A stretch of DNA of 64,000 bases from Paracoccaceae bacterium (GTDB taxonomy: Bacteria; Pseudomonadota; Alphaproteobacteria; Rhodobacterales; Rhodobacteraceae), in NCBI GenBank assembly GCA_004153385.1, contig SDAL01000001.1, forward strand, positions 682,001 through 746,000, read 5' to 3'. The notes beneath the pieces were generated by a model, which worked only from the letters and a program-made list of their open reading frames with translations, made no database searches and was not told the DNA's origin. Below are positions 10,823 through 37,279 of the stretch, one piece after another (position 1 is the stretch's first letter; every line of letters starts with the position of its first letter). A program made the position numbers and the translations under genes.

Positions 10823-13114
10823 ATGAGGAAACGCCCGGGGGCAGCTGTGCACTCAGCCATACGACATCGCGGCGCATTATGGGATCGGCTTGTTCGGCTC
10901 AGAAGACAACGTCGGGTGAATAATGTTTTGACCCTAAGCCTCGTTGTGCTGGGTCCGTTGCTGGCAATGGCGACGTTTTTCGTCCTCGGCCCGATGGCAC
11001 GTGGCGGCAGTAGCGGCGGTGCGCTTCGGGTCGTTCTTTTAGCAGATTTTGTGTATTTTTTGTTATTGGCGGGGCTGATCGTCGCACGGCTCGCACAAAT
11101 GCTGGCTGCACGGCGAAACCGTTCTTCAGGGTCCCGGCTGACCTTGCGGTTAACGGGGATTTTCGCCTTTGTTGCCCTTATGCCAACAGTGCTTGTGGCC
11201 TTGTTTGCAGGGCTTACGCTGAACATCGGGCTTGAAGGGTGGTTCTCGGATAGGGTTCGGCAGGTGGTCGGCACCTCTCTGCAGGCGGCAGAAGCCTATC
11301 AGGAAGAACACCGCCATGACTTGACCGAAGATGCAGAGGCGCTATCGGGCTTTTTGAACCTGCGCCGTCAAGCCGCAACCTTCATGTCTGACGGAGAGCT
11401 GCGAGAGCTGCTGGTGGCCGGTCAAAGCGGCATCCAGCGCGGATTGAAAGAAGCCTATATCATTGACGGCACCGGAGAAATCGTTGCCCGGGGCGATCGC
11501 AGCTACCTTTTCGATTTTGAAAAACCCGCCCCTGAACGTATCGTCGAAGCGCAAGCAGGCGGCACGGTGCTGATAGAGGATTGGGGCATCAATGAATTTC
11601 ATGCCCTGAGACAGCTTGATGCATTTGTGGACCGATATCTTTATGTGTCGCGCACCGTCGACGGGTCTATTCTGTCACTTTTGGATGATACCCGCGCAAC
11701 CGTGAACCTCTACCAGCAGCTAGAGGCAACTCGGGGGCGCGTTATATTTGAATTCGGCCTTGTTTATCTGGGCTTTGCCCTGATCATGATTTTGGCCGCC
11801 GTTTGGCTTGGGCTGTGGTTTGCAGAGCGTTTGTCCAGACCGATTGGCCGGATGGCGGCAGCGGCCGAACGGGTTGGTGCGGGGGATCTGGATGCGCGCG
11901 TCATTTCGGCTGAAGGTGATGATGAAATCGCCCTGCTGGGGCGCAGTTTCAACCGGATGACCGCGCAGCTTAAAGATCAGCGTGTGGCCCTGATCGCCAG
12001 TCATGCGATCACCGAAGAACGTCGCAGGCTTTTTGATTCCGTACTGGGCTCTGTGACTTCCGGGGTAATAGGGTTGGACGCGCAAGGTAACATCGATTTT
12101 GTCAACCGCTCCGCCGCAAAGCTGCTGGATCTGGACGACAGTCAGGACCATGATCGTGCCATTGGTGAAGCGGTCCCAGAGTTTTCCGATCTTTTCAATC
12201 GCTTGCACGGATCTGTTTATGAGGTTCTACAAGAGGAAATCCGGCTATCACGGCAAGGCCGTTTGGAAAGTCTTCTGGTGCGGATCGCTTTGCGCCGCCG
12301 GGAGGATGGGGTCACCGAAGGCTATGTGATCGCCTTTGAAGATGTGACCGAACTGGTGTCCGCCCAGCGAATGGCCGCGTGGGGTGACGTCGCCCGCCGG
12401 ATTGCACATGAAATTAAAAATCCGTTGACGCCGATCCAGCTTTCAGCCGAACGGATCAAACGGAAGTTCACCAAACACGTAGGAGACGATGCAGGGTCTC
12501 TGGATCAATTGACCGGCGTGATCATCAGGCAAACCAATGACTTGCGTCGGATCGTTGATGAATTTTCTCGCTTTGCGAGGATGCCCGAACCTGACCGGCG
12601 CGAGCATGATGTCACCTATCTGATGCGCGATATCGTCGCATTGCAAGAAGACGCACTGCATGGCGCCCGACTGAGTGCCGATCTGCCAGATCACCCTGTT
12701 ATCATCGAACTGGACGCCACGATGATCGGTCAAGCCATCACAAACTTGATTAAAAATGCCGGGGAAGCCATTGAATCACTTTGCGAAAAAGGACAACCCG
12801 AAGAGTATGATCCACAAGTTCGCGTCGAGATGCTGGATCAATCCGATTTCTTGATCATACGGATCATGGACAATGGTATCGGGCTTCCTGAGGATCGCAC
12901 GCGCTTGTTTGAACCCTATGTCACAACCCGTTCCAAAGGGACCGGTTTGGGTCTACCCATCGTAAAGAAGATCATCGAAGAACATGGCGGGACTTTGGTG
13001 CTGCGCGATGCACCGCCATTTGAACCGGGGGCACAGTGTGGCGCCCTTGCTGAAATTCGTCTGCCACGCGCCCATGCGGCGATGCGTGCCATCAAGGATA
13101 GTGAACTGACATGA
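10823..13114 (+). CDS. ntrY: Membrane sensor histidine kinase NtrY
   Basis: A 763-residue kinase. Membrane helices lie near residues 33-55, 68-92, 110-135 and 315-335, enclosing a periplasmic or membrane-proximal sensor region (about 136-310). A HAMP domain (RLSRPIGRMAAAAERVGAGD), a PAS domain and the histidine box [20 protein letters not shown] follow, then ATP-binding boxes NLIKNAGEAIE, DNGIGLP and GTGLGLPIVKKI. NtrYX senses nitrogen, redox or envelope state in alphaproteobacteria. Its stop overlaps the ntrX start by 4 nt. Confidence 0.95.
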   Translation: MRKRPGAAVHSAIRHRGALWDRLVRLRRQRRVNNVLTLSLVVLGPLLAMATFFVLGPMARGGSSGGALRVVLLADFVYFLLLAGLIVARLAQMLAARRNRSSGSRLTLRLTGIFAFVALMPTVLVALFAGLTLNIGLEGWFSDRVRQVVGTSLQAAEAYQEEHRHDLTEDAEALSGFLNLRRQAATFMSDGELRELLVAGQSGIQRGLKEAYIIDGTGEIVARGDRSYLFDFEKPAPERIVEAQAGGTVLIEDWGINEFHALRQLDAFVDRYLYVSRTVDGSILSLLDDTRATVNLYQQLEATRGRVIFEFGLVYLGFALIMILAAVWLGLWFAERLSRPIGRMAAAAERVGAGDLDARVISAEGDDEIALLGRSFNRMTAQLKDQRVALIASHAITEERRRLFDSVLGSVTSGVIGLDAQGNIDFVNRSAAKLLDLDDSQDHDRAIGEAVPEFSDLFNRLHGSVYEVLQEEIRLSRQGRLESLLVRIALRRREDGVTEGYVIAFEDVTELVSAQRMAAWGDVARRIAHEIKNPLTPIQLSAERIKRKFTKHVGDDAGSLDQLTGVIIRQTNDLRRIVDEFSRFARMPEPDRREHDVTYLMRDIVALQEDALHGARLSADLPDHPVIIELDATMIGQAITNLIKNAGEAIESLCEKGQPEEYDPQVRVEMLDQSDFLIIRIMDNGIGLPEDRTRLFEPYVTTRSKGTGLGLPIVKKIIEEHGGTLVLRDAPPFEPGAQCGALAEIRLPRAHAAMRAIKDSELT

Positions 13115-14517
13115 GTGATATTTTAATCGTCGATGATGAAAAAGACATCCGCGAACTCATTTCTGAGATCCTCGAGGATGAGGGCTTTTCAACGCGAATG
13201 GCTTCGAACTCGGATGAATGTCTTGATCAGATCAACTCTGAAGCGCCGGCGCTGATGATCTTGGATATCTGGCTCAAAGACAGCCGTATGGACGGGATCG
13301 ACATTCTAAAAGCCACGAAACGAGATAATCCCGATATTCCGATCATCATCATTTCGGGCCACGGGAATGTGGAAATCGCAGTGGCTGCAATCAAGCAGGG
13401 CGCGTATGATTTCATTGAAAAACCCTTTAATATCGATCAGTTGCTGGTGGTTATTTCACGTGCGATGGAAACCTCGCGGCTGCGGCGCGAAAATTCGACC
13501 CTGAAGCGGCGTGACATGCAAACAGGTGAGATGCTGGGCGATGGTGTGGCCTTTCGCAGGCTGCGCGAGCATCTGGACAAAGTGACCAAATCGAATGGCC
13601 GCGTCATGCTGACAGGTGAGCCCGGATCGGGCAAGGAAACGGCCGCACGCTATATCCACCAGCATTCCGCGCGCGCGACCGCCCCGTTTGTGACGGTGAA
13701 TTCCGCCTCGATCGAGCCCGACCGCATGGAGGAGGTGTTGTTTGGCCGCGAGACACCGGAACGTGGCATCGAAAAAGGGCTTTTGGAACAGGGACATGGT
13801 GGTGTGGTCTACCTTGATGAGGTGGCCGAGATGCCGCTGGGGACCCAGTCCAAGATTTTGCGCGTTCTGACAGAGCAACAGTTCCAGCGTGTGGGCGGCG
13901 CCGACAAGGTGCGGGTGGATTTGCGGTTCATCAGCTCCACCACCCGTGATCTGTCTTCGGAAATCACCGCAGGGCGGTTCCGCCAAGAACTGTACGACCG
14001 GCTGAATGTGGTGCCGATCACGGTGCCCAGCCTGACAGACCGCCGCGAGGATTTACCGCTCTTGGCGGAGTATTTCATCGTCCAGTTCAACGAAACGCAG
14101 GGGCTGCCACTTCGCCCGCTGTCTGATGATGCGATTGCGCTGATGCAAACGCTTGACTGGCCGGGTAATATCCGCCAGCTGCGAAATGTGATCGAACGGG
14201 TGCTGATTTTGGGTGACGGGACCGGCGCGATCGAGGCCAGAGAACTGGAAGGCGACGGACCGGCACAATCTGACGAGGGACGGGTAGTACTGGCAGGACA
14301 GCTTGCGACCCTGCCGCTGCGCGAGGCGCGAGAGCTGTTCGAACGCGAGTATCTGCTGACCCAGATCAACAGGTTCGGGGGCAATATTTCGCGCACAGCC
14401 AGCTTCGTTGGGATGGAACGCTCTGCGTTGCATCGAAAGCTGAAATCGCTTGGTGTTGTGACCAGCTCGAAATCGGGCGCGCGTATCGCGCGGCTCGAGG
14501 ATGAATTCCCTGAGTGA
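13111..14517 (+). CDS. ntrX: Response regulator NtrX (GAFTGA-less)
   Basis: A 468-residue regulator, partner of NtrY. The receiver domain has acceptor Asp52 (MILDIWLKDSRMDG); the AAA+ domain has Walker A GEPGSGKE (169-176) and Walker B GGVVYLDEVAEMP; the C-terminus carries a Fis-type helix-turn-helix (GGNISRTASFVGMERSALHR). Where sigma-54 activators have GAFTGA, this protein reads LFGRETPERGIEKGLLE (210-226), so the loop is replaced. It is therefore unlikely to work through sigma-54 in the usual way. It is coupled to ntrY by an ATGA overlap. Confidence 0.95.
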   Translation: MSDILIVDDEKDIRELISEILEDEGFSTRMASNSDECLDQINSEAPALMILDIWLKDSRMDGIDILKATKRDNPDIPIIIISGHGNVEIAVAAIKQGAYDFIEKPFNIDQLLVVISRAMETSRLRRENSTLKRRDMQTGEMLGDGVAFRRLREHLDKVTKSNGRVMLTGEPGSGKETAARYIHQHSARATAPFVTVNSASIEPDRMEEVLFGRETPERGIEKGLLEQGHGGVVYLDEVAEMPLGTQSKILRVLTEQQFQRVGGADKVRVDLRFISSTTRDLSSEITAGRFRQELYDRLNVVPITVPSLTDRREDLPLLAEYFIVQFNETQGLPLRPLSDDAIALMQTLDWPGNIRQLRNVIERVLILGDGTGAIEARELEGDGPAQSDEGRVVLAGQLATLPLREARELFEREYLLTQINRFGGNISRTASFVGMERSALHRKLKSLGVVTSSKSGARIARLEDEFPE

Positions 14518-14623
14518 GCGCTGATCCGGCAAGCCGGCGGGCCCTTTCTGGGTGGGGCAGACGCCGCATTGACCCGCCACTGGGGGCACCATAGAAGGGC
14601 TGTAACGTTGCGCGGAGGTTCGC

Positions 14624-16003
14624 ATGAAGGTCATTATCTGCGGTGCAGGACAGGTTGGTTGGCAGATCGCCCGGCACCTGTCGGGTGAACGCAATGACGT
14701 TACCGTGGTGGATATGAACCCGGAACTGGTTCGGCGGGCAGCCGATGTGCTGGATGTTCAGGGCACGGTGGGGTTTGCCTCCCATCCGGATGTCCTTGAG
14801 GCCGCAGGTGCGCGCGATTGCGACCTGATCATTGCCGCGACCCATTCCGACGAGGTCAACATGGTGACCTGTCAGGTGGCACAGTCTGTTTTCGGCATCA
14901 CGCGAAAAATCGCGCGTCTGCGGTCGCAAAGCTACCTCAACCCTGAATATACCGATATTTACCGCCGCGATCAGTTGCCCATTGATGTGATCATCAGCCC
15001 CGAGCGCGAGGTCGCAGAGGCCGCGTTGCAGCGGCTGGCCTCGCCTGCGACATTCGACACCGAAAGCTTCATGGGTGGCAAATTGCAGCTGATGGGGATC
15101 GTAATCGATCAGGACTGTCCTGTTCTGGCGACCCCGTTACGCCAGCTGACAGACCTGTTTTCGACGTTGCGCGCCATTGTGGTGGGGGTACGCCGCGACG
15201 AGCGGCTTTTTGCGCCAGAACCCGGCGATCAGCTGTTTGCCGGTGACCAGATCTATCTGTCGTCGCATACCGATGATGTGGCCCGAACGCTGGAAATTTT
15301 CGGCAAGGTGTCCAAGCGGCAGGAGAGGATCGTGATTATCGGCGGCGGCAATGTCGGTCTGGCGGTTGCCAAGGCGCTGGAGGAACGCTCCGGCAAGACC
15401 CGCACTAAAATTATCGAAGGGTCACGCGCCCGCGCGGAGCTGGCCGCCGATACGCTGGAGCGCACGATCGTGCTGCATGGGGATGGGATGTCCGCGGAAC
15501 TGCTGGCAGAGGCCAACATCTCTACCGCGGATGCGCTTTTGGCAGTGACCGACGATGACAAGACCAATATTCTGGTGGCTGTGCGCGCCAAGCAGGCTGG
15601 CTGTAATATGGTGATCAGCTTGGTCAATGATCCCACTTTGGTGCCGATGATGGGGCCGCTCGGGATCGATGCGCAAATCAATCCGCGCGCGACCACCGTA
15701 TCGTCGATCCTGCGCCACGTCCGTCATGGCAGGGTGCGCTCTATCTACTCCATCGGCGACGCCGAGGCGGAGGTGATCGAGGCGCAGGTGCTGGGCACGT
15801 CTCCGATTTCGGGCAAGATGCTGCGGGATGTCGAATTTCCCGAAGGCGTGTTGATGGGCGGGCTGATGAAGGGCGACAAGGTCATCGTGCGCCCCAAAGC
15901 CACCACCCGCATTGAAGAGGGCGATGTCGTGGTCTTGTTCGCGCTATCTGCGGATGTGGCCGAGGTGGAGCGCCTGTTGCAGGTCTCCATCGATTACTTC
16001 TAA
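14624..16003 (+). CDS. trkA: Trk potassium uptake regulatory protein TrkA
   Basis: A 459-residue cytoplasmic protein made of two RCK units. Each begins with a nucleotide-binding Rossmann motif: MKVIICGAGQVGWQIAR at the start and IVIIGGGNVGLAVAKAL in the middle; each is followed by a TrkA-C domain. TrkA binds NAD(H)/ATP and gates the TrkH channel. GGAGG precedes the ATG. It follows ntrX by 106 nt and precedes trkH by 12 nt, so trkAH are an operon, probably with ntrYX. Confidence 0.96.
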   Translation: MKVIICGAGQVGWQIARHLSGERNDVTVVDMNPELVRRAADVLDVQGTVGFASHPDVLEAAGARDCDLIIAATHSDEVNMVTCQVAQSVFGITRKIARLRSQSYLNPEYTDIYRRDQLPIDVIISPEREVAEAALQRLASPATFDTESFMGGKLQLMGIVIDQDCPVLATPLRQLTDLFSTLRAIVVGVRRDERLFAPEPGDQLFAGDQIYLSSHTDDVARTLEIFGKVSKRQERIVIIGGGNVGLAVAKALEERSGKTRTKIIEGSRARAELAADTLERTIVLHGDGMSAELLAEANISTADALLAVTDDDKTNILVAVRAKQAGCNMVISLVNDPTLVPMMGPLGIDAQINPRATTVSSILRHVRHGRVRSIYSIGDAEAEVIEAQVLGTSPISGKMLRDVEFPEGVLMGGLMKGDKVIVRPKATTRIEEGDVVVLFALSADVAEVERLLQVSIDYF

Positions 16004-16015
16004 GGGGGCCGCCTT

Positions 16016-17527
16016 ATGCTGCGCGTCTTCCTGAATATGCCGCTTTTTGTCATCCTGATCGCGATTGTCGGTCTGGCAATGTATGTGCCGGCGTTCCACG
16101 CGCTGAGCCTGCGGCAGCATTTTGTGGCGCGCCCGTTTTTCTATTCCGGCACGCTTTTGCTGTTTTTGTCAGTGATGCTGGCACTTGCGACGGCGGCCAA
16201 CAAGCGTCGCGCCAGAGAGCGCTCGACGCTGCTGACGATGCTTGCGGCCTTCACCGCGTTGCCTTTGGTGCTGGCAATCCCGTTTCATGAAGCACTTCCC
16301 GATACCAGTCTGTTCAATGCATGGTGGGAGATGGTGTCGTGTTTTACGACCACGGGCGGCTCTCTTTATGCGCCATCACGCCTGCCGCCATCGCTGCATC
16401 TATGGCGGGCGCTTGTGGGGTGGATGGGCGGCTATTTCATGCTGGTCATGGCGATTGCGGTTCTGGCGCCTTTGCGCTTGGGGGGCTTCGAGATTTTCTT
16501 TTCGGGCGGGCCGTCAGGTGCGGTCACCGATGCGGGGCCGCGGTCTATCGCATCGCGCAGCCGGATGGCGGAATATGCGCTACAGTTGCTACCAACCTAT
16601 GCGGGGCTGACAGTCGCGCTATGGGTGGCGCTACGTATCGCAGGGGAAGGCAATCTGATCGCGCTCAGCACGGCGATGTCCACCTTGTCGACCTCCGGCA
16701 TTTTGCCCGTGGGTTCATTGCCAGAAGGTCAGGGTGGCATTGCGGGCGAAATGCTGGTGTTTTTATTTTTGATACCCGCGCTTTCAAGGCGTTTCTGGCC
16801 GGGGGCAGGCGAAATGCGTGCAACCCAGCGCATGCGCGACGATCCTGAAATACTGCTCGCGGCCTTTTTGGTCATCACGGTGGTGGTGATCTTGTTCTTG
16901 CGTCATTGGATTGCAGCCCTGGAGGTGGAGACGCGATCCGATCTGATGGCCGCCGTGCGCACGCAATGGGGCAGCTTGTTCACTGCGCTGTCATTTCTGA
17001 CCACCACCGGGTTTGAATCGACGGGCTGGGAAGATGCGCGCAGCTGGGCGGGCTTGGGCGCACCGGGGCTGATCCTGTCGGGGCTGGCGATCGTAGGCGG
17101 AGGGATTGCCACGACCGCCGGGGGCGTACGATTGCTAAGGGTGTATGCGCTGATCCGGCATGGCGAACGAGAACTGGATACGCTTGTCTATCCCAGTTCG
17201 ATCGGGGGCGGTGGCGCCTCCGCACGCAAACTGCGCCGCAGCGGTGCGTTCATCGCGTGGATTTTTTTCATGCTGTTTGCGATGTCCATCTCCTCCGTGA
17301 TGATCGCGATATCGCTGGCGGGGCTGGATTTCGAGCCGGCCACGATCTTTACCGTCGCGGCCCTGTCAAATACCGGCCCGCTGGCGGCTGTGGCAGGGGA
17401 TTTCCCGCTGGCATGGGGGGATCTGGGCAGTATGGCAAAGACTATTCTGGCTGCAGCCATGGTACTCGGGCGACTTGAAACACTCGCGATCATTGCGCTT
17501 TTTAATCCCGAACTTTGGCGGAAATAA
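16016..17527 (+). CDS. trkH: Trk potassium uptake channel protein TrkH
   Basis: A 503-residue membrane protein of the TrkH/KtrB family with about ten to twelve helices. The four pore-loop repeats with filter glycines are visible, for example FTTTGGSLYAPS, STLSTSGILP, FLTTTGFESTGW and AALSNTGPLA. It imports potassium, gated by TrkA. Arms CGGGCGAC (17467) and GTCGCCCG (17530), followed by six T at 17543, could form a terminator with a long loop spanning the stop codon. Confidence 0.95.
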   Translation: MLRVFLNMPLFVILIAIVGLAMYVPAFHALSLRQHFVARPFFYSGTLLLFLSVMLALATAANKRRARERSTLLTMLAAFTALPLVLAIPFHEALPDTSLFNAWWEMVSCFTTTGGSLYAPSRLPPSLHLWRALVGWMGGYFMLVMAIAVLAPLRLGGFEIFFSGGPSGAVTDAGPRSIASRSRMAEYALQLLPTYAGLTVALWVALRIAGEGNLIALSTAMSTLSTSGILPVGSLPEGQGGIAGEMLVFLFLIPALSRRFWPGAGEMRATQRMRDDPEILLAAFLVITVVVILFLRHWIAALEVETRSDLMAAVRTQWGSLFTALSFLTTTGFESTGWEDARSWAGLGAPGLILSGLAIVGGGIATTAGGVRLLRVYALIRHGERELDTLVYPSSIGGGGASARKLRRSGAFIAWIFFMLFAMSISSVMIAISLAGLDFEPATIFTVAALSNTGPLAAVAGDFPLAWGDLGSMAKTILAAAMVLGRLETLAIIALFNPELWRK

Positions 17528-17666
17528 CCGTCGCCCGAGAGGTTTTTTCGACGATAGCGCTAAGAGTTTGTTTTTGGGGCTGGAAACTTATACCGAGTTC
17601 AGCATACTCAGGAGAGAGCGGGACGAACCAACGTCCCCGAACTGCTACAAGAAAAGGCAAAACTAA

Positions 17667-17900
17667 ATGGCTGCCGATAAACAGAACCTGCAGGATGCGT
17701 TTCTGAACCACGTGCGTAAGACGAAGGTTCCGGTCACGATCTTTTTGATTAATGGCGTAAAACTTCAGGGTGTGATTACCTGGTTTGATAATTTCTGTGT
17801 GTTGTTGCGCCGTGATGGCCAGTCCCAACTGGTTTATAAGCACGCGATTTCCACGATTATGCCAGGCCAGCCGATTTCCCTGTATGAAGGCGACGATTGA
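17667..17900 (+). CDS. hfq: RNA-binding protein Hfq
   Basis: A 77-residue protein with the Sm1 motif ([34 protein letters not shown]) and the Sm2 motif [10 protein letters not shown]. Hfq forms a ring that pairs small RNAs with messages; in alphaproteobacteria it also controls nitrogen-related genes, which fits its place beside ntrBC/ntrYX. The short acidic tail (YEGDD) is typical for the group. The 139 nt upstream is A+T richer than the genes and should carry its promoter; it also has a small hairpin GGGACG...CGTCCC near 17620. Confidence 0.97.
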
Positions 17901-19191
17901 GTCCGATTTGAACGAATTCGTATCTACTGAAAAAGCCCCAACGCGGGCTTATGTGTTGCATCCCGACCTGAAAACCGGGAACGGGATGCGTTTGCCGAAA
18001 CATGCGCTGGCCGAAGCAACGGCCCTCGCCGCAGCGCTTCCCGGTCTGGAGGTCGTCGGGTCGGAGATTGTACGCCTGCCCAAACCTCATGCGGGCCATT
18101 TGTTTGGTACAGGCAAAATGGCCGAACTGGCCGAACGGCTTGAGGCGGAAGAGGTTGATCTGGTTTTGGTCGACGGCCCCGTCACGCCAGTCCAGCAACG
18201 CAATCTGGAGAAGGAATGGGGGGTCAAGCTGCTTGACCGTCCGGGGCTGATCCTTGAGATTTTCGCCGACCGCGCGCGCACCCGTGAAGGGGTGCTGCAG
18301 GTCGAACTGGCCGCCCTTAGCTATCAGCGCACCCGTCTGGTGCGGGCATGGACCCACCTTGAACGCCAGCGCGGCGGGCTTGGGTTTGTGGGTGGACCGG
18401 GCGAGACACAGATCGAGGCAGACAGACGGGCGATCGATGACCAGATGGTACGGTTGCGTCGCCAGCTTGCCAAGGTTGTGAAAACCCGCGAGTTGCACCG
18501 CGCGTCGCGGCGCAAGGTGCCGTTCCCGATTGTTGCGCTGGTGGGCTATACAAACGCCGGCAAATCGACGCTGTTCAACAAAATGACCGGTGCCGATGTG
18601 ATGGCCAAGGATATGCTGTTTGCGACCCTTGATCCGACCATGCGCGGTGTGGAGCTGCCCTCCGGGCGCAAGGTGATCTTGTCCGATACGGTTGGCTTTA
18701 TCTCCGAGTTGCCCCACCAGTTGGTGGCCGCGTTCCGCGCGACCCTTGAGGAGGTTCTCGAGGCCGATCTGATCGTGCATGTGCGCGATATTTCCCACCC
18801 CCAGACAGACGCCCAATCCGAGGATGTGGCCGATATTCTGGAAAAACTCGGTATCGATAAGCAAACGCCGCAGATCGAGGTCTGGAACAAGCTCGATCAG
18901 GTCCCGCAGGACGCGGCAGATGCGTTGCGCACCCAATCGGGCCGACAAGACGATGTGGAGGCAATTTCCGCGATCACCGGTGAAGGGTTCGAGGCGCTAC
19001 TTGCTTTGATCGAATCCCGTCTTGGCGAAGAGCGTCTGGACGAGGTGCTGGAATTGCCGTTTGCCGATGGCCGCCGTTATGCCTGGCTTCACGCGCAAAA
19101 CGTCGTGCGCGAAGAAAAGCAGACCAAGCAGGGTTGGTCGATCGAGGTCAACTGGACCATCTCGCAAAAAGGTCGCTTTGACGCGCTTTAA
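17884..19191 (+). CDS. hflX: Ribosome-associated GTPase HflX
   Basis: A 435-residue GTPase. The N-terminal HflX domain ([35 protein letters not shown]) is followed by a linker helix region with [15 protein letters not shown], then the G domain: G1 [10 protein letters not shown]3 DTVGF, G4 NKLD. HflX splits stalled ribosomes. I set the start at the ATG at 17884, which overlaps the end of hfq by 17 nt in another frame; a TTG at 17908 just after the hfq stop is the alternative. hfq-hflX is the classical order. Confidence 0.93.
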
Positions 19192-32982: not shown

Positions 32983-34824
32983 TTATTGCACGGGCTCGCT
33001 CCACCACACATCAGGCAAAAACCCGGGCCAATCGCCATAAACGGGCAGGGTGTCGGGAAAGGCGAGGCTCGATTTATGCGCCAGCCGCGAAACACGCGAA
33101 TACCACGCCGGTATGACATACCGTTCGCTTGTCAAAACCCGGTCCAGAGCGCGCACTGCGGCGATATAGTCCTCTTGATCGGTGGCCGCCAGCATCGCCT
33201 CTATCATGGCATCGATTGCGGGATTGTGGGCCCCCATCATATTGCGCGTGCCTTGCGTCTCTACCCCTTGCGCGCCCCAGTAAAGCGGTTGCTCGTTGCC
33301 CGGGCTTAGCGACAGGGCGATCAGATACCACGTCATATCGAAATTATAACTGCGGGTGCGCTGCACATATTGCGCATCATCAATCACCGTCACCTCGGGG
33401 AAAACGCCAATCCGTGCCAAGGCCTGCAAGAAGATGCTGACAACGGGCTGCGGATTGTAGGGGCCAAAACTGTAACCACCCCCCTGTCGCAACAAGATCT
33501 CGAACCGGAAGGGTTGGCCTGCGTCATTGCGCAAAATCCCGTCATCAGCCACATGCCATCCCGCCTCGTTAAGCAAGCCAAGCGCGGCACGTGCACCGCG
33601 CCGGTTGAGCGCGCGTCCGTCTGTAACGGGCAGGGGATTGCCATCCATTGTGCCGGGCGGCAAGGAGGCGGCAAAGGGTGCAAGCAGCGCGCGGACCTTG
33701 CCGGTCGCAGGCCCCTTGCGCATGCCCAGCACGGAATTGTCGAAATAGGATTGTGCGCGGGGTTCGCTGCCGTCATTCAGGGTCTGGTTGATAAATTCGT
33801 AATTGAAAACCTGTGTCAGCGCCTCGCGCACACGCCAATCCGAAAAAATCGCGCGCCGTGTATTAAACACCAAGCCGTCCATGCCCGACGGACGCTTATG
33901 GGGGATTTCATCCTGTACGACCTCGCCAGAGGATACGGCCGCAAATGTGTAGTTATTATCCCAGCGCGCACCGCTCATTTCGCGCCAGATATCGATTGCT
34001 CCTGCTTTAAAGGCCTCGAATATCACGTTGGCATCACTAAAGTATTCAAGCTGGATCGTATCGAAATTCCACAATCCCGCGTTGAAATTAATGTCTTGGC
34101 CCCACCAGTCTTGATCCCGCTCGAACCGGATCGACTTGCCTTGATCGACGCCACCCACAACATAAGGCCCCGAGCCGATCGGCACCATATGGGTGGTGGT
34201 GGCAAAATCTTTCCCCTCCCACTGCGCTTTTTCCAAAATCGGACGCATTCCCATGATCAGCGCCAGTTCGCGATCGGGGGAGTTGAAGGTCAGCCGCACA
34301 CGCCGCGGGCCGGTTTGTGTGATCGAGGCCACCTTCGCCCATGCGTTGCGGTAGCGCGGGTGGCCTTGGGTCCCGAGCGTTTCGTAAGACCAGATCACAT
34401 CGTCCACAGTGACAGGCGCGCCATCTGAAAAGCGGGCCTGCGGACGCAAGGTAAATTCCACCCAGCTACGCTCGGGATCGGTCTCTACCGTTTCTGCCAA
34501 AAGACCATACAGCGTAAATGGTTCGTCACGCGAGCGTGCCATCAGTGTTTCGGTTACATAGGTATCGATTCCAGCGGCCGCGCGTCCGGTCAGTATCCAC
34601 GGGTTGAGCGAGTCAAAGCTGCCTGATTCGCCTAGCCGGATCGTGCCGCCTTTCGGGGCATCGGGGTTCGCATAGGGAAGGTGGTCAAACCCGGGGTCAA
34701 GCGCAGGGTCGCCATTCATCGCGATAGCGTGTTGTGGGCGGGCCTGAAGGGAGGTTGCGCAAACCAGTGTGCCAGCAACCACAGAAACGGCTAGAAAAAC
34801 GTTAATAAACACCGACTTTGCCAT
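32983..34824 (-). CDS. Extracellular solute-binding protein, family 5 (peptide-type)
   Basis: A 613-residue periplasmic protein with a signal peptide (about residues 1-29, ending LQARP). The SBP_bac_5 pattern is clear: GTIRLGESGSFDSLNPWILT, then EFTLRPQARFSDGAPVTVDDV, and SGARWDNNYTFAAV. Such proteins bind oligopeptides or related solutes for Opp/Dpp-type ABC importers. No permease or ATPase genes are next to it, so it is an orphan here. AAGGAAAAG precedes the ATG. Confidence 0.9.
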   Translation of the reverse strand: MAKSVFINVFLAVSVVAGTLVCATSLQARPQHAIAMNGDPALDPGFDHLPYANPDAPKGGTIRLGESGSFDSLNPWILTGRAAAGIDTYVTETLMARSRDEPFTLYGLLAETVETDPERSWVEFTLRPQARFSDGAPVTVDDVIWSYETLGTQGHPRYRNAWAKVASITQTGPRRVRLTFNSPDRELALIMGMRPILEKAQWEGKDFATTTHMVPIGSGPYVVGGVDQGKSIRFERDQDWWGQDINFNAGLWNFDTIQLEYFSDANVIFEAFKAGAIDIWREMSGARWDNNYTFAAVSSGEVVQDEIPHKRPSGMDGLVFNTRRAIFSDWRVREALTQVFNYEFINQTLNDGSEPRAQSYFDNSVLGMRKGPATGKVRALLAPFAASLPPGTMDGNPLPVTDGRALNRRGARAALGLLNEAGWHVADDGILRNDAGQPFRFEILLRQGGGYSFGPYNPQPVVSIFLQALARIGVFPEVTVIDDAQYVQRTRSYNFDMTWYLIALSLSPGNEQPLYWGAQGVETQGTRNMMGAHNPAIDAMIEAMLAATDQEDYIAAVRALDRVLTSERYVIPAWYSRVSRLAHKSSLAFPDTLPVYGDWPGFLPDVWWSEPVQ

Positions 34825-34897
34825 TACTTTTCCTTTTATATCGCCACAACTTTAAAGAAAAACTAGCCAGCCGCCAGATTCAGGATGAATTTTCCCC

Positions 34898-35005
34898 TTT
34901 AAACCCAAGTCAGATCAGCATATAAAGGTGTCACTGCTCGATAGGTTTCTGCCTGTATGAAACCTGCCTCATGACTTAGCGCCCGCCTTGTGCGGGCGTT
35001 TTTTT
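34898..35005 (+). ncRNA. Candidate small RNA with its own promoter-like boxes and terminator
   Basis: The plus strand shows a TTTAAA box (34898-34903), 17 nt, then TATAAA (34921-34926). A transcript from about 34933 would hold a 7-bp hairpin (AGGTTTC 34943-34949 with GAAACCT 34959-34965) and end at a 7-bp stem CGCCCGC / GCGGGCG (34980-34998) followed by seven T. It would be about 70 nt. No open frame here is credible, and the neighbouring gene on the left runs the other way. I do not recognise a named RNA family. Confidence 0.45.
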
Positions 35006-35240
35006 GTTTTCTTGCTGGATTTTATCAAAACAGATGCGGTGTGTATTTGGGAATCAACACATTGCCGGCGCGGTTGCACCGGGCTTCAACGAGCTGACTC
35101 CTTAGGTGATCCCCCGCTTTTCCAATATGGGATTCCCAAGCGCAAGCGGAAAATAGCACCTAGGCGTGATCACGCGTAGCTGGACCTTTGACGTCTATGG
35201 CCTAAAGTCAACGCTGCAGTGTATTGCAATGGAGGGGACC
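35006..35240. other. Gene-free stretch before bdhA
   Basis: With the candidate RNA, 34825-35240 is a gap of 416 bases. This part has no credible gene. It contains the bdhA leader with GGAGGGG just before the start, and a G+C-rich stretch 35090-35165. I see no confident promoter. Confidence 0.5.
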
Positions 35241-36014
35241 ATGAGTCTCGAAGGTAAAACCGCCGTCATCACCGGCTCGAATTCCGGTATCGGGTTGGGT
35301 GTGGCCACAGAGCTTGCCAAAGCTGGCGCCAATATCGTTCTCAATTCTTATACCGACCGCGACGAAGATCATAAGCTGGCAGATGACCTCGCACGTAAAT
35401 ACGGTATCACAGCGCGCTATATAAAAGCGGACCTGTCCAATGGAAGCGAAGCTCGCGGCCTGATCGAGGCGGCCGGCCAGTGCGATATTCTGGTGAATAA
35501 CGCAGGCATCCAACACGTCGCCCCGATTGACGAGTTCCCGATCGAGAAATGGGACGCGATCATTGCGATCATGCTGAGTTCTGCCTTTCACACAACGGCT
35601 GTCGCATTGCCGATGATGCGCAAGGCAGGTTGGGGACGGGTGGTCAACATAGCCTCTGCACACGGGCTGACTGCATCGCCTTACAAATCAGCCTATGTTT
35701 CGGCCAAACACGGTGTGGTGGGTCTGACGAAGACAGTCGCGCTGGAAACTGCGCGTGAACAAATCACCGCAAATGCAATCTGTCCGGGATATGTGCACAC
35801 GCCGCTGGTCGAGGCCCAGATCCCCGATACCGCAAAAAAGTATAATATGAGCGAAGAGGAAGCCGTCGAGAAGATTATTCTTGATCGCCAGCCCTCGAAA
35901 GAATTTGCAACTGTCGAGCAAATCGGGGGCACAGCCGTGTTCTTGTGCTCTGCGGCGGCCGAGCAGATTACCGGGACAACCATCTCGATTGATGGCGGCT
36001 GGACCGCGCTTTAA
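35241..36014 (+). CDS. bdhA: 3-hydroxybutyrate dehydrogenase
   Basis: A 257-residue short-chain dehydrogenase. The cofactor motif is TGSNSGIGLG, NNAG is present (NNAGIQHV), and the catalytic Ser139, Tyr152 and Lys156 lie in NIASAHGL and SAYVSAKHG. The insert YNMSEEEAVEKIILDRQPSKEF is typical of D-3-hydroxybutyrate dehydrogenases, which oxidise 3-hydroxybutyrate to acetoacetate after breakdown of polyhydroxybutyrate. The start at MSLEGKTAVI has a GGAGGGG site upstream. The downstream patatin-like gene is probably co-transcribed. Confidence 0.93.
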   Translation: MSLEGKTAVITGSNSGIGLGVATELAKAGANIVLNSYTDRDEDHKLADDLARKYGITARYIKADLSNGSEARGLIEAAGQCDILVNNAGIQHVAPIDEFPIEKWDAIIAIMLSSAFHTTAVALPMMRKAGWGRVVNIASAHGLTASPYKSAYVSAKHGVVGLTKTVALETAREQITANAICPGYVHTPLVEAQIPDTAKKYNMSEEEAVEKIILDRQPSKEFATVEQIGGTAVFLCSAAAEQITGTTISIDGGWTAL

Positions 36015-36107: not shown

Positions 36108-36220
36108 TTACGGCTGCGGCCCCCCGTCGCGTACGCAAGTTGATCGACCGGCACAATCGGGCCAAAGATAGGCCGCGCGGGGCCAGCGCCGGCCCTGCGC
36201 GGCCCGAGGAACTCAGCACA

Positions 36221-37279
36221 ATGGCAGGTAACACGATGCGACGCATAAATCTCGCCCTTCAGGGGGGCGGCGCACATGGGGCCTTCACGTGGGGCGCGCT
36301 TGACCGGATCTTGCAAGACGACACAATCGAGATTACCGCGATATCGGGCACGTCGGCAGGGGCCCTGAACGGGGCCGCGCTGAAGGCAGGGTTGGCGCAG
36401 GCCGAAGGGGCCGAGGGACGCGCCGCTGCACGCGAAAATCTGGACTGGTTATGGTCGCAAGTGGCCGAGGTGAACGACATCCGCATGGACCGATGGGTTA
36501 CCGCGATGTTTCCCTATCCGGAAATTTTTACGCGCTGGATGGATATGTTCAATCCGGTGGCGTGGATGGGGCAGGCGGCGCGGATGTTCTCGCCCTATGA
36601 TTCAGGACCATTCTATATCAATCCGCTTGAACGGGTGGTAAAGCGGTTCGCATTCGACAAGATCGGGTGCAGCGCAGGGCCTGCCCTGTTTGTATCCGCG
36701 ACCAATGTGCGCAGCGGTAAAATTCGTGTATTTTCGGGCCAAGAGGTGACCGCTCAGGCGATCCTTGCCTCTGCCTGCCTGCCCAATGTGTTTCGTGCTG
36801 TTGAAATCGACGATCCCGAAACCGGCGTGACCGAGGCGTATTGGGATGGTGGGTATACCGGAAACCCCGCGCTGTTTCCATTGTTCGAACCGGACTTCCC
36901 CGGTGATCTGGTGATCGTCAATATCAACCCGCTCAAGCGCGACACGGTGCCCCGCACGCCAGACCAGATCGAAGAACGGATCAACGAGATTTCGTTCAAC
37001 TCCTCATTGTTGCGGGAATTGCGGGCAATCGATTTTGTCAGGCGCCTGATCAGGGAAGAGCGGCTGCCAGCGGGGATGATGAAAAACGTTCTGATCCATA
37101 TGATCGCCGATGACGAAATCATGCTGTCGCTCGGCGGATCCTCCAAGATATCGCCTGTCAGCGGCACGCTTGTACGGTTGAAAAATGCAGGCTATCAGGC
37201 CGCCGACAGGTTTCTGGATCGCCATGGCGACAAGATCGGCAAGGAAGCCTCCGTTGATCTGGCGGCGCTGTTTTCCTGA
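36221..37279 (+). CDS. Patatin-like phospholipase
   Basis: A 352-residue cytoplasmic patatin-fold protein. The oxyanion loop LALQGGGAHGAFTWG, the nucleophile Ser45 in ISGTSAGALNG and the Asp in EAYWDGGYTGNP form the Ser-Asp dyad. Patatin proteins cleave acyl esters of lipids; some are linked to polyhydroxybutyrate metabolism, which fits the position behind bdhA, but the substrate is not proven. I chose the ATG at 36221, with GAGGAA upstream; MRRINLALQ at 36236 is an alternative. Confidence 0.88.
   Translation: MAGNTMRRINLALQGGGAHGAFTWGALDRILQDDTIEITAISGTSAGALNGAALKAGLAQAEGAEGRAAARENLDWLWSQVAEVNDIRMDRWVTAMFPYPEIFTRWMDMFNPVAWMGQAARMFSPYDSGPFYINPLERVVKRFAFDKIGCSAGPALFVSATNVRSGKIRVFSGQEVTAQAILASACLPNVFRAVEIDDPETGVTEAYWDGGYTGNPALFPLFEPDFPGDLVIVNINPLKRDTVPRTPDQIEERINEISFNSSLLRELRAIDFVRRLIREERLPAGMMKNVLIHMIADDEIMLSLGGSSKISPVSGTLVRLKNAGYQAADRFLDRHGDKIGKEASVDLAALFS

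Follow-up and report, generated by a model that had tools for sequence, protein, structure and literature searches.

Positions 34933-35004 (plus strand) of the window, by which we mean the whole stretch of 64,000 nucleotides that was analysed, very probably hold the gene of StsR, a trans-acting small RNA of stress and stationary phase with an RpoH-type promoter, its own terminator and the ability to pair with UpsM and the dcw leader. The element is an autonomous and conserved RNA gene, equipped with a terminator of its own and with a seed that complements the mraZ leader of the same genome, and it is best read as an independent small RNA gene. It is most likely the counterpart of the StsR of Rhodobacter sphaeroides, a correspondence drawn by comparison with the description of that RNA and not with its sequence.

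Locus and Architecture of the Element

The element lies in a 416-bp gap (34825-35240) that separates a divergent gene (32983-34824, minus strand) from bdhA (35241-36014, plus strand). A sequence-only reading of the same DNA had described the gap as free of genes and the left gene as divergent, and direct reading confirmed these coordinates. It had proposed an orphan small RNA on the strength of a TTTAAA box (34898-34903), a 17-nt spacer, a TATAAA box, a small hairpin and a G+C stem with seven T, all of which are present in the letters. The features can be listed as follows.

34897-34901, plus strand: CTTTA at the place of the -35 box, from the alignment; relatives have CTTGG
34921-34926, plus strand: -10 box TATAAA, read directly; TATA in every one of the 81 distinct upstream sequences from relatives
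34933-35004, plus strand: predicted 72-nt small RNA (StsR), with its start predicted from the first conserved base together with the -10 box and its end inside the T run
34942-34966, plus strand: hairpin 1, stem 34942-34949 with 34959-34966, loop UGCCUGUAU; invariant in 61 aligned sequences
34950-34963, plus strand: stretch complementary to the genome's own mraZ leader (UpsM), 13 exact pairs, 14 with one G-U
34978-35005, plus strand: intrinsic terminator, nine-pair stem (34978-34986 with 34992-35000) and seven T (34999-35005); a terminator scan also finds the stem, which shows compensatory changes in relatives
32983-34824, minus strand: divergent neighbour, a substrate-binding protein of an ABC transporter by weak matches to families, none of which reaches cut-off
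35241-36014, plus strand: downstream neighbour bdhA, 3-hydroxybutyrate dehydrogenase (TIGR01963, 362.3 bits, cut-off 307.05)
17667-17900, plus strand: hfq, likely RNA chaperone partner (TIGR02383, 113.8 bits, cut-off 61.7)

Counted from the A that follows the -10 box as far as the T run, the RNA would measure 72 nt between its predicted ends and be closed by its own terminator. Promoter-, hairpin- and terminator-like letters prove little by themselves, and the region 34400-35400 contains three terminator-like sites against 1.2 expected. The fold of 34928-35006 has z = -4.93, with none of 200 shuffles as good, and that of the 72-nt form has z = -3.17, with two of 200 shuffles as good.

As had also been pointed out, Hfq is encoded in the same window; its gene comes after a sensor kinase gene and ntrX (NF051870, 739 bits) within 10823-19191 (plus strand), where the other open reading frames presumably encode NtrY, TrkA, TrkH and HflX. 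Behind bdhA, the open reading frame 36206-37279 (plus strand) carries GGGAHGAF and GTSAG motifs and looks by eye like a patatin-like phospholipase, its sole NCBIfam match being far below cut-off (23.5 bits against 1000). On the minus strand, a terminator-like stem with a T run (34863-34877) precedes the divergent transporter gene and may be an attenuator or a chance occurrence.

Conservation of Sequence and Structure

Conservation in relatives had been set as a check on the proposal, and the outcome speaks for it. A nucleotide search with 34880-35020 found matches in 290 of 295 family genomes, corresponding to 289 of 294 genera and to 258 of 260 good assemblies. The five genomes with no match are 71-92% complete, and a covariance model run on them returned nothing convincing (best 23.0 bits). 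One of the 290, G236, matched at E 0.0016 in the nucleotide search and at 20.3 bits with the covariance model, which did not confirm it. In its own genome the element is single-copy, other matches being short and weak (E 0.86 or worse). A scan of 385 genomes of the class gave 20 matches at E 0.01 or better, under strict filters by which distant relatives may be missed. Five of these are listed family members (92-107 bits); the 15 outside them score 23-33 bits, and the ten that were inspected resemble unrelated terminators.

Positions 2-40 of the RNA are invariant in 61 distinct aligned sequences, save one T missing in the window alone. The loci L009-L037 are the best matches of the family-wide nucleotide search, and 14 of the 61 aligned rows belong to a set of 25 loci retrieved with an exact pattern that spans much of the RNA, a set that is therefore uninformative on the conservation of that part. 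The set least biased for the 5' domain consists of 30 genomes chosen by MraZ score, and all 30 are identical over GATAGGTTTCTTGCCTGTATGAAACCTGCCTC. Among 15 weak-match genomes picked by eye, the covariance model confirmed 14, ten of which keep ACTGCTCGATAGGTTTCTTGCCTGTATGAAACCTGCCTC, G102, G017, G157 and G227 being the ones that differ.

The two stem-loops are conserved in different ways. Among the 61 sequences, four terminator pairs show changes in both partners, a number reached by 16 of 500 shuffles. Over the whole structure 98.9% of cells pair, and 37 both-sided cells were counted against a shuffled mean of 13.2, with none of 500 shuffles reaching 37. In hairpin 1, all eight pairs never vary in the 61 sequences; covariation is thus uninformative there, and what is conserved is the sequence, with no compensatory changes.

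The Promoter

The sequence-only reading had listed TTTAAA ahead of TATAAA. At the same spacing relatives have CTTGG, of which TTTAAA is a degenerate version. CTTGG followed by TATA at a distance of 17 to 20 occurs in 70 of the 81 distinct upstream sequences of relatives (the window sequence lies outside the 81, part of which come from the 25 pattern-retrieved loci). The G of TTG is kept in 78 of these promoters and the block AAACTTTT is carried by 70. Promoters of RpoHI and RpoHII are described as having TTG at -35 and TAT at -12 (PMC10673084). The window promoter (34887-34903) reads CTTTA at the -35 place and has neither TTG nor AAACTTTT; its genus-mate G254 (L013), which keeps both, reads CAAACTTTTCCCTTGG there. 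Since the -35 box is devoid of TTG, control of the window copy may differ from that of its relatives, and a change of sigma control in the window's lineage is possible, judging from these letters. A sigma-70 promoter was also considered and rejected, as a strict scan of 34400-35400 found none (0.9 expected) and the RpoH-type motif of the relatives explains the boxes better.

Complementarity to the mraZ Leader

UpsM has been described as a 206-nt RNA that arises when transcription terminates within the 268-nt mraZ leader and that RNase E converts to a 3' fragment of 130 nt in a manner dependent on Hfq and RpoHI/II, long mraZ leaders being a feature of the family (PMC5089854). We searched 32 mraZ loci, namely those of the window's own genome, of G051 and of the 30 relatives with the best MraZ scores, for complementarity to the RNA. 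G051 we take to be R. sphaeroides, its PufL being identical to the R. sphaeroides PufL. One homologue of the RNA is present in it (L070); no named R. sphaeroides record was found with the patterns tried, which did find Cereibacter johrii (L134).

A single copy of the motif CATACAGG, on the mraZ strand, is present in 28 of the 32 loci; the motif lies within CAGGTTTCATACAGGC, the reverse complement of the RNA's GCCTGTATGAAACCTG. When each RNA was compared with the leader of its own genome, the longest exact run measured 16-18 nt in 20 of the 32 genomes; it was no shorter than 12 nt in 26 of them and no shorter than 11 nt in 30. Out of 640 shuffled leaders, two reached an exact run of 11 and none reached 12 or more. 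The exact run is 12 nt in G051.

With G-U pairs allowed, 45 genomes were compared (the 32 and 13 of the weak-match genomes, G017 being left out), and runs of at least 14 were present in 32 of them against 31 of 900 shuffles. Nine of the 45 stay at 12 or less, a length of 12 being reached by 138 of the 900 shuffles; these nine include G051 (12), G008 (10) and G102 (9). In at least G291, G095 and G122 the longest such run lies away from the CATACAGG site.

When the beginning of the G051 leader is set 268 nt ahead of the mraZ start, a 206-nt RNA ends in the T-rich tail of the terminator. The pairing site occupies nt 55-71 of this UpsM, with 12 exact pairs, one mismatch and then four further pairs; the 130-nt fragment implies a cut at 76/77, five bases after the site. 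In the predicted fold of UpsM the site is 57% unpaired and the cut region 12%. This model, with the site more open than the cut region, is in line with the description of StsR pairing as exposing a previously double-stranded RNase E site in UpsM (PMC8307010).

Joint folding, with a program unable to represent the opening of the cut region, gave a gain of -12.1 for the own genome (shuffle mean -8.8, sd 3.0) and of -11.3 for G051 (shuffle mean -8.5, sd 3.0), each against 60 shuffles, so that real and shuffled UpsM are separated weakly, by about one sd, and the same holds for duplex energies over the whole leader. A helix of at least eight next to the site in UpsM was found in 9 of 30 leaders and in 24 of 600 shuffles, which is suggestive.

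The leader of the own genome resembles other UpsM leaders of the Rhodobacteraceae in its order of blocks (pairing site, long hairpin, terminator), and UpsM is the target and not the same RNA. Its site GCAGTTTCATACAGGC is missing one G of the usual GCAGGTTTCATACAGGC (L073, about 1250-1275), and the loop of the RNA has lost one T (34949-34951) when compared with its relatives; the two losses together shorten the exact pairing to 13 nt.

Other details of the leaders were observed as well. Besides the pairing site, they share a long hairpin block running from GATCCGGCGCGC to GCGAGCAGACATCCCCCCAGGTG (e.g., L073, about 1290-1420). The loop of the UpsM terminator, CAGTGGCAGC, is kept though the surrounding stem changes. 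In the mraZ leader of G227 (L203) there are tandem partial pairing sites, GCAGGTTTCATGCGGG and then TCATACAGGC about 20 nt on.

Further contacts between RNA and leader were considered and rejected. In the own genome and in G051, the 5' end of the RNA (CACTGCTCGAT) can pair with the UpsM terminator at its 5' arm and loop (ATCGGGCAGTG), as for a toehold antitermination. As a conserved feature this was discarded: when G-U is scored as a mismatch and no more than one mismatch is tolerated, 10 of the 32 leaders match, and changes in the terminator stem are not followed by the RNA. The 7-nt match of the tail CTGCTCG to the conserved leader block CGAGCAG is too short to exceed chance, by an estimate made with no control. 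Compensatory change between RNA and leader was likewise rejected, the RNA hardly varying; a both-sided change in G102 is suggestive, but its longest run is at chance level. In G017 the seed is altered, but the leader falls outside the contig.

Identity of the RNA

StsR, formerly RSs0827, is described as a 72-nt RNA of R. sphaeroides that associates with Hfq, is controlled by RpoHI/RpoHII, is abundant in stationary phase and binds UpsM, the dcw 5' UTR and the rpoE mRNA (PMC8307010), the published target in the latter starting 10 nt past the start codon. The predicted length of 72 nt equals the published one (PMC8307010), and the two RNAs further have in common their own terminator and complementarity to UpsM and the mraZ/dcw leader. 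In G051 the complementary site lies just before the RNase E cut. The promoter of StsR is of the RpoH type, as are those of the window's relatives, whereas the window copy has CTTTA and not CTTGG at -35. The proposal of an orphan small RNA is supported, the gene being conserved, single-copy, syntenic and autonomous with its own terminator; as a refinement, it most likely corresponds to an RNA already described and is not a new one.

It is improbable that the element is another conserved small RNA of the family, with the mraZ leader as one of several targets. In favour of such a reading, the identity with StsR was not read off a sequence, and other family-wide small RNAs have been reported, for example intergenic 60 and 134 of Paracoccus denitrificans (PMC5107571); but the element agrees with StsR in its length, in the type of promoter, in complementarity to UpsM and in the placement of the site right in front of the published cut. 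None of the Rfam 15 models reaches its gathering score across the window. Weak sub-threshold matches over the same bases were given by Hrs13 (RF02631; 24.0 bits, gathering 52), suhB/mmgR (RF00519; 21.3 bits, gathering 41) and SorY (RF02651; 16.3 bits, gathering 111), the last being a named R. sphaeroides RNA, and the failure to match it also speaks against that reading. All three are small RNAs with a 3' terminator hairpin, as is the element, but their scores are far below gathering.

Still less credible is a cis-acting leader or attenuator of bdhA, in which transcription from 34933 would usually stop at the terminator and occasionally read through. The terminator does stand upstream of bdhA on the same strand, and a bdhA match follows within 1.5 kb in 49 of 61 loci (58 genomes, G012, G241 and G103 each being present twice), in 45 of these at no more than 400 nt from the core. 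However, no bdhA match follows the element in the other 12 loci, while the divergent transporter gene is kept upstream of the RNA in 60 of 61, and the invariant part is the 5' targeting domain and not the terminator. The possibility that there is no RNA gene at all, the promoter-like and terminator-like letters being accidental, finds some favour in the empty strict promoter scan and in the terminator-like sites expected by chance, but is practically dismissed by conservation, synteny and the compensatory changes in the terminator.

Proposed Mode of Action

Taking the element as StsR, the following pathway can be proposed. Transcription of StsR would start at an RpoH-type promoter under stress and in stationary phase and stop at the terminator of the gene. 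The first 40 nt of the RNA would hold the target-reading part, where the hairpin loop GCCUGUAU, continued by the 3' arm GAAACCUG, would pair with a complementary site that is present both in the long leader of the mraZ/dcw (division and cell wall) operon and in UpsM, the short RNA that results from termination in that leader. With the help of Hfq, this pairing would open the adjacent leader sequence to RNase E, which would remove UpsM and lower the amount of dcw mRNA, so that division slows. The transcript, its sigma control and stress induction, Hfq binding, RNase E cleavage and the effect on division are thus predicted here by analogy with R. sphaeroides, in which less dcw mRNA and slower growth are described (PMC8625941, PMC11354728).

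Significance for the Rhodobacteraceae

The first 40 nt of the RNA keep nearly every letter even where promoter, terminator and UpsM site have changed. The 5' tail ACUGCUCGAUAGG lies outside the UpsM duplex and is as invariant as the seed, and a conserved partner for it, sought in the mraZ leaders, was not found there. This invariant tail outside the duplex, together with an RNA more conserved than its site in the leader, suggests another universal partner. We tentatively propose, at somewhat less than even odds, that StsR is no speciality of Rhodobacter but the frozen trans half of a division switch common to practically the whole Rhodobacteraceae, and a fixed hub with at least one further universal partner, RNA or protein, more than a regulator that adapts.

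No account of a family-wide distribution of StsR was found in the available parts of PMC8307010, PMC11354728, PMC8625941, PMC9779115, PMC10673084, PMC11089165, PMC13414033, PMC3413700 and PMC3688512; the founding description of StsR lies outside that scope, and no claim is made that its conservation is unreported. An alignment and a covariance model are now given for an RNA with no threshold match among the Rfam 15 models, and the question is posed of why its 40-nt reading part is more conserved than the target site. An RNA that is induced by stress and restrains division, as worked out in one laboratory species, would in this way become a testable property of the whole of this ecologically important family, roseobacters included.
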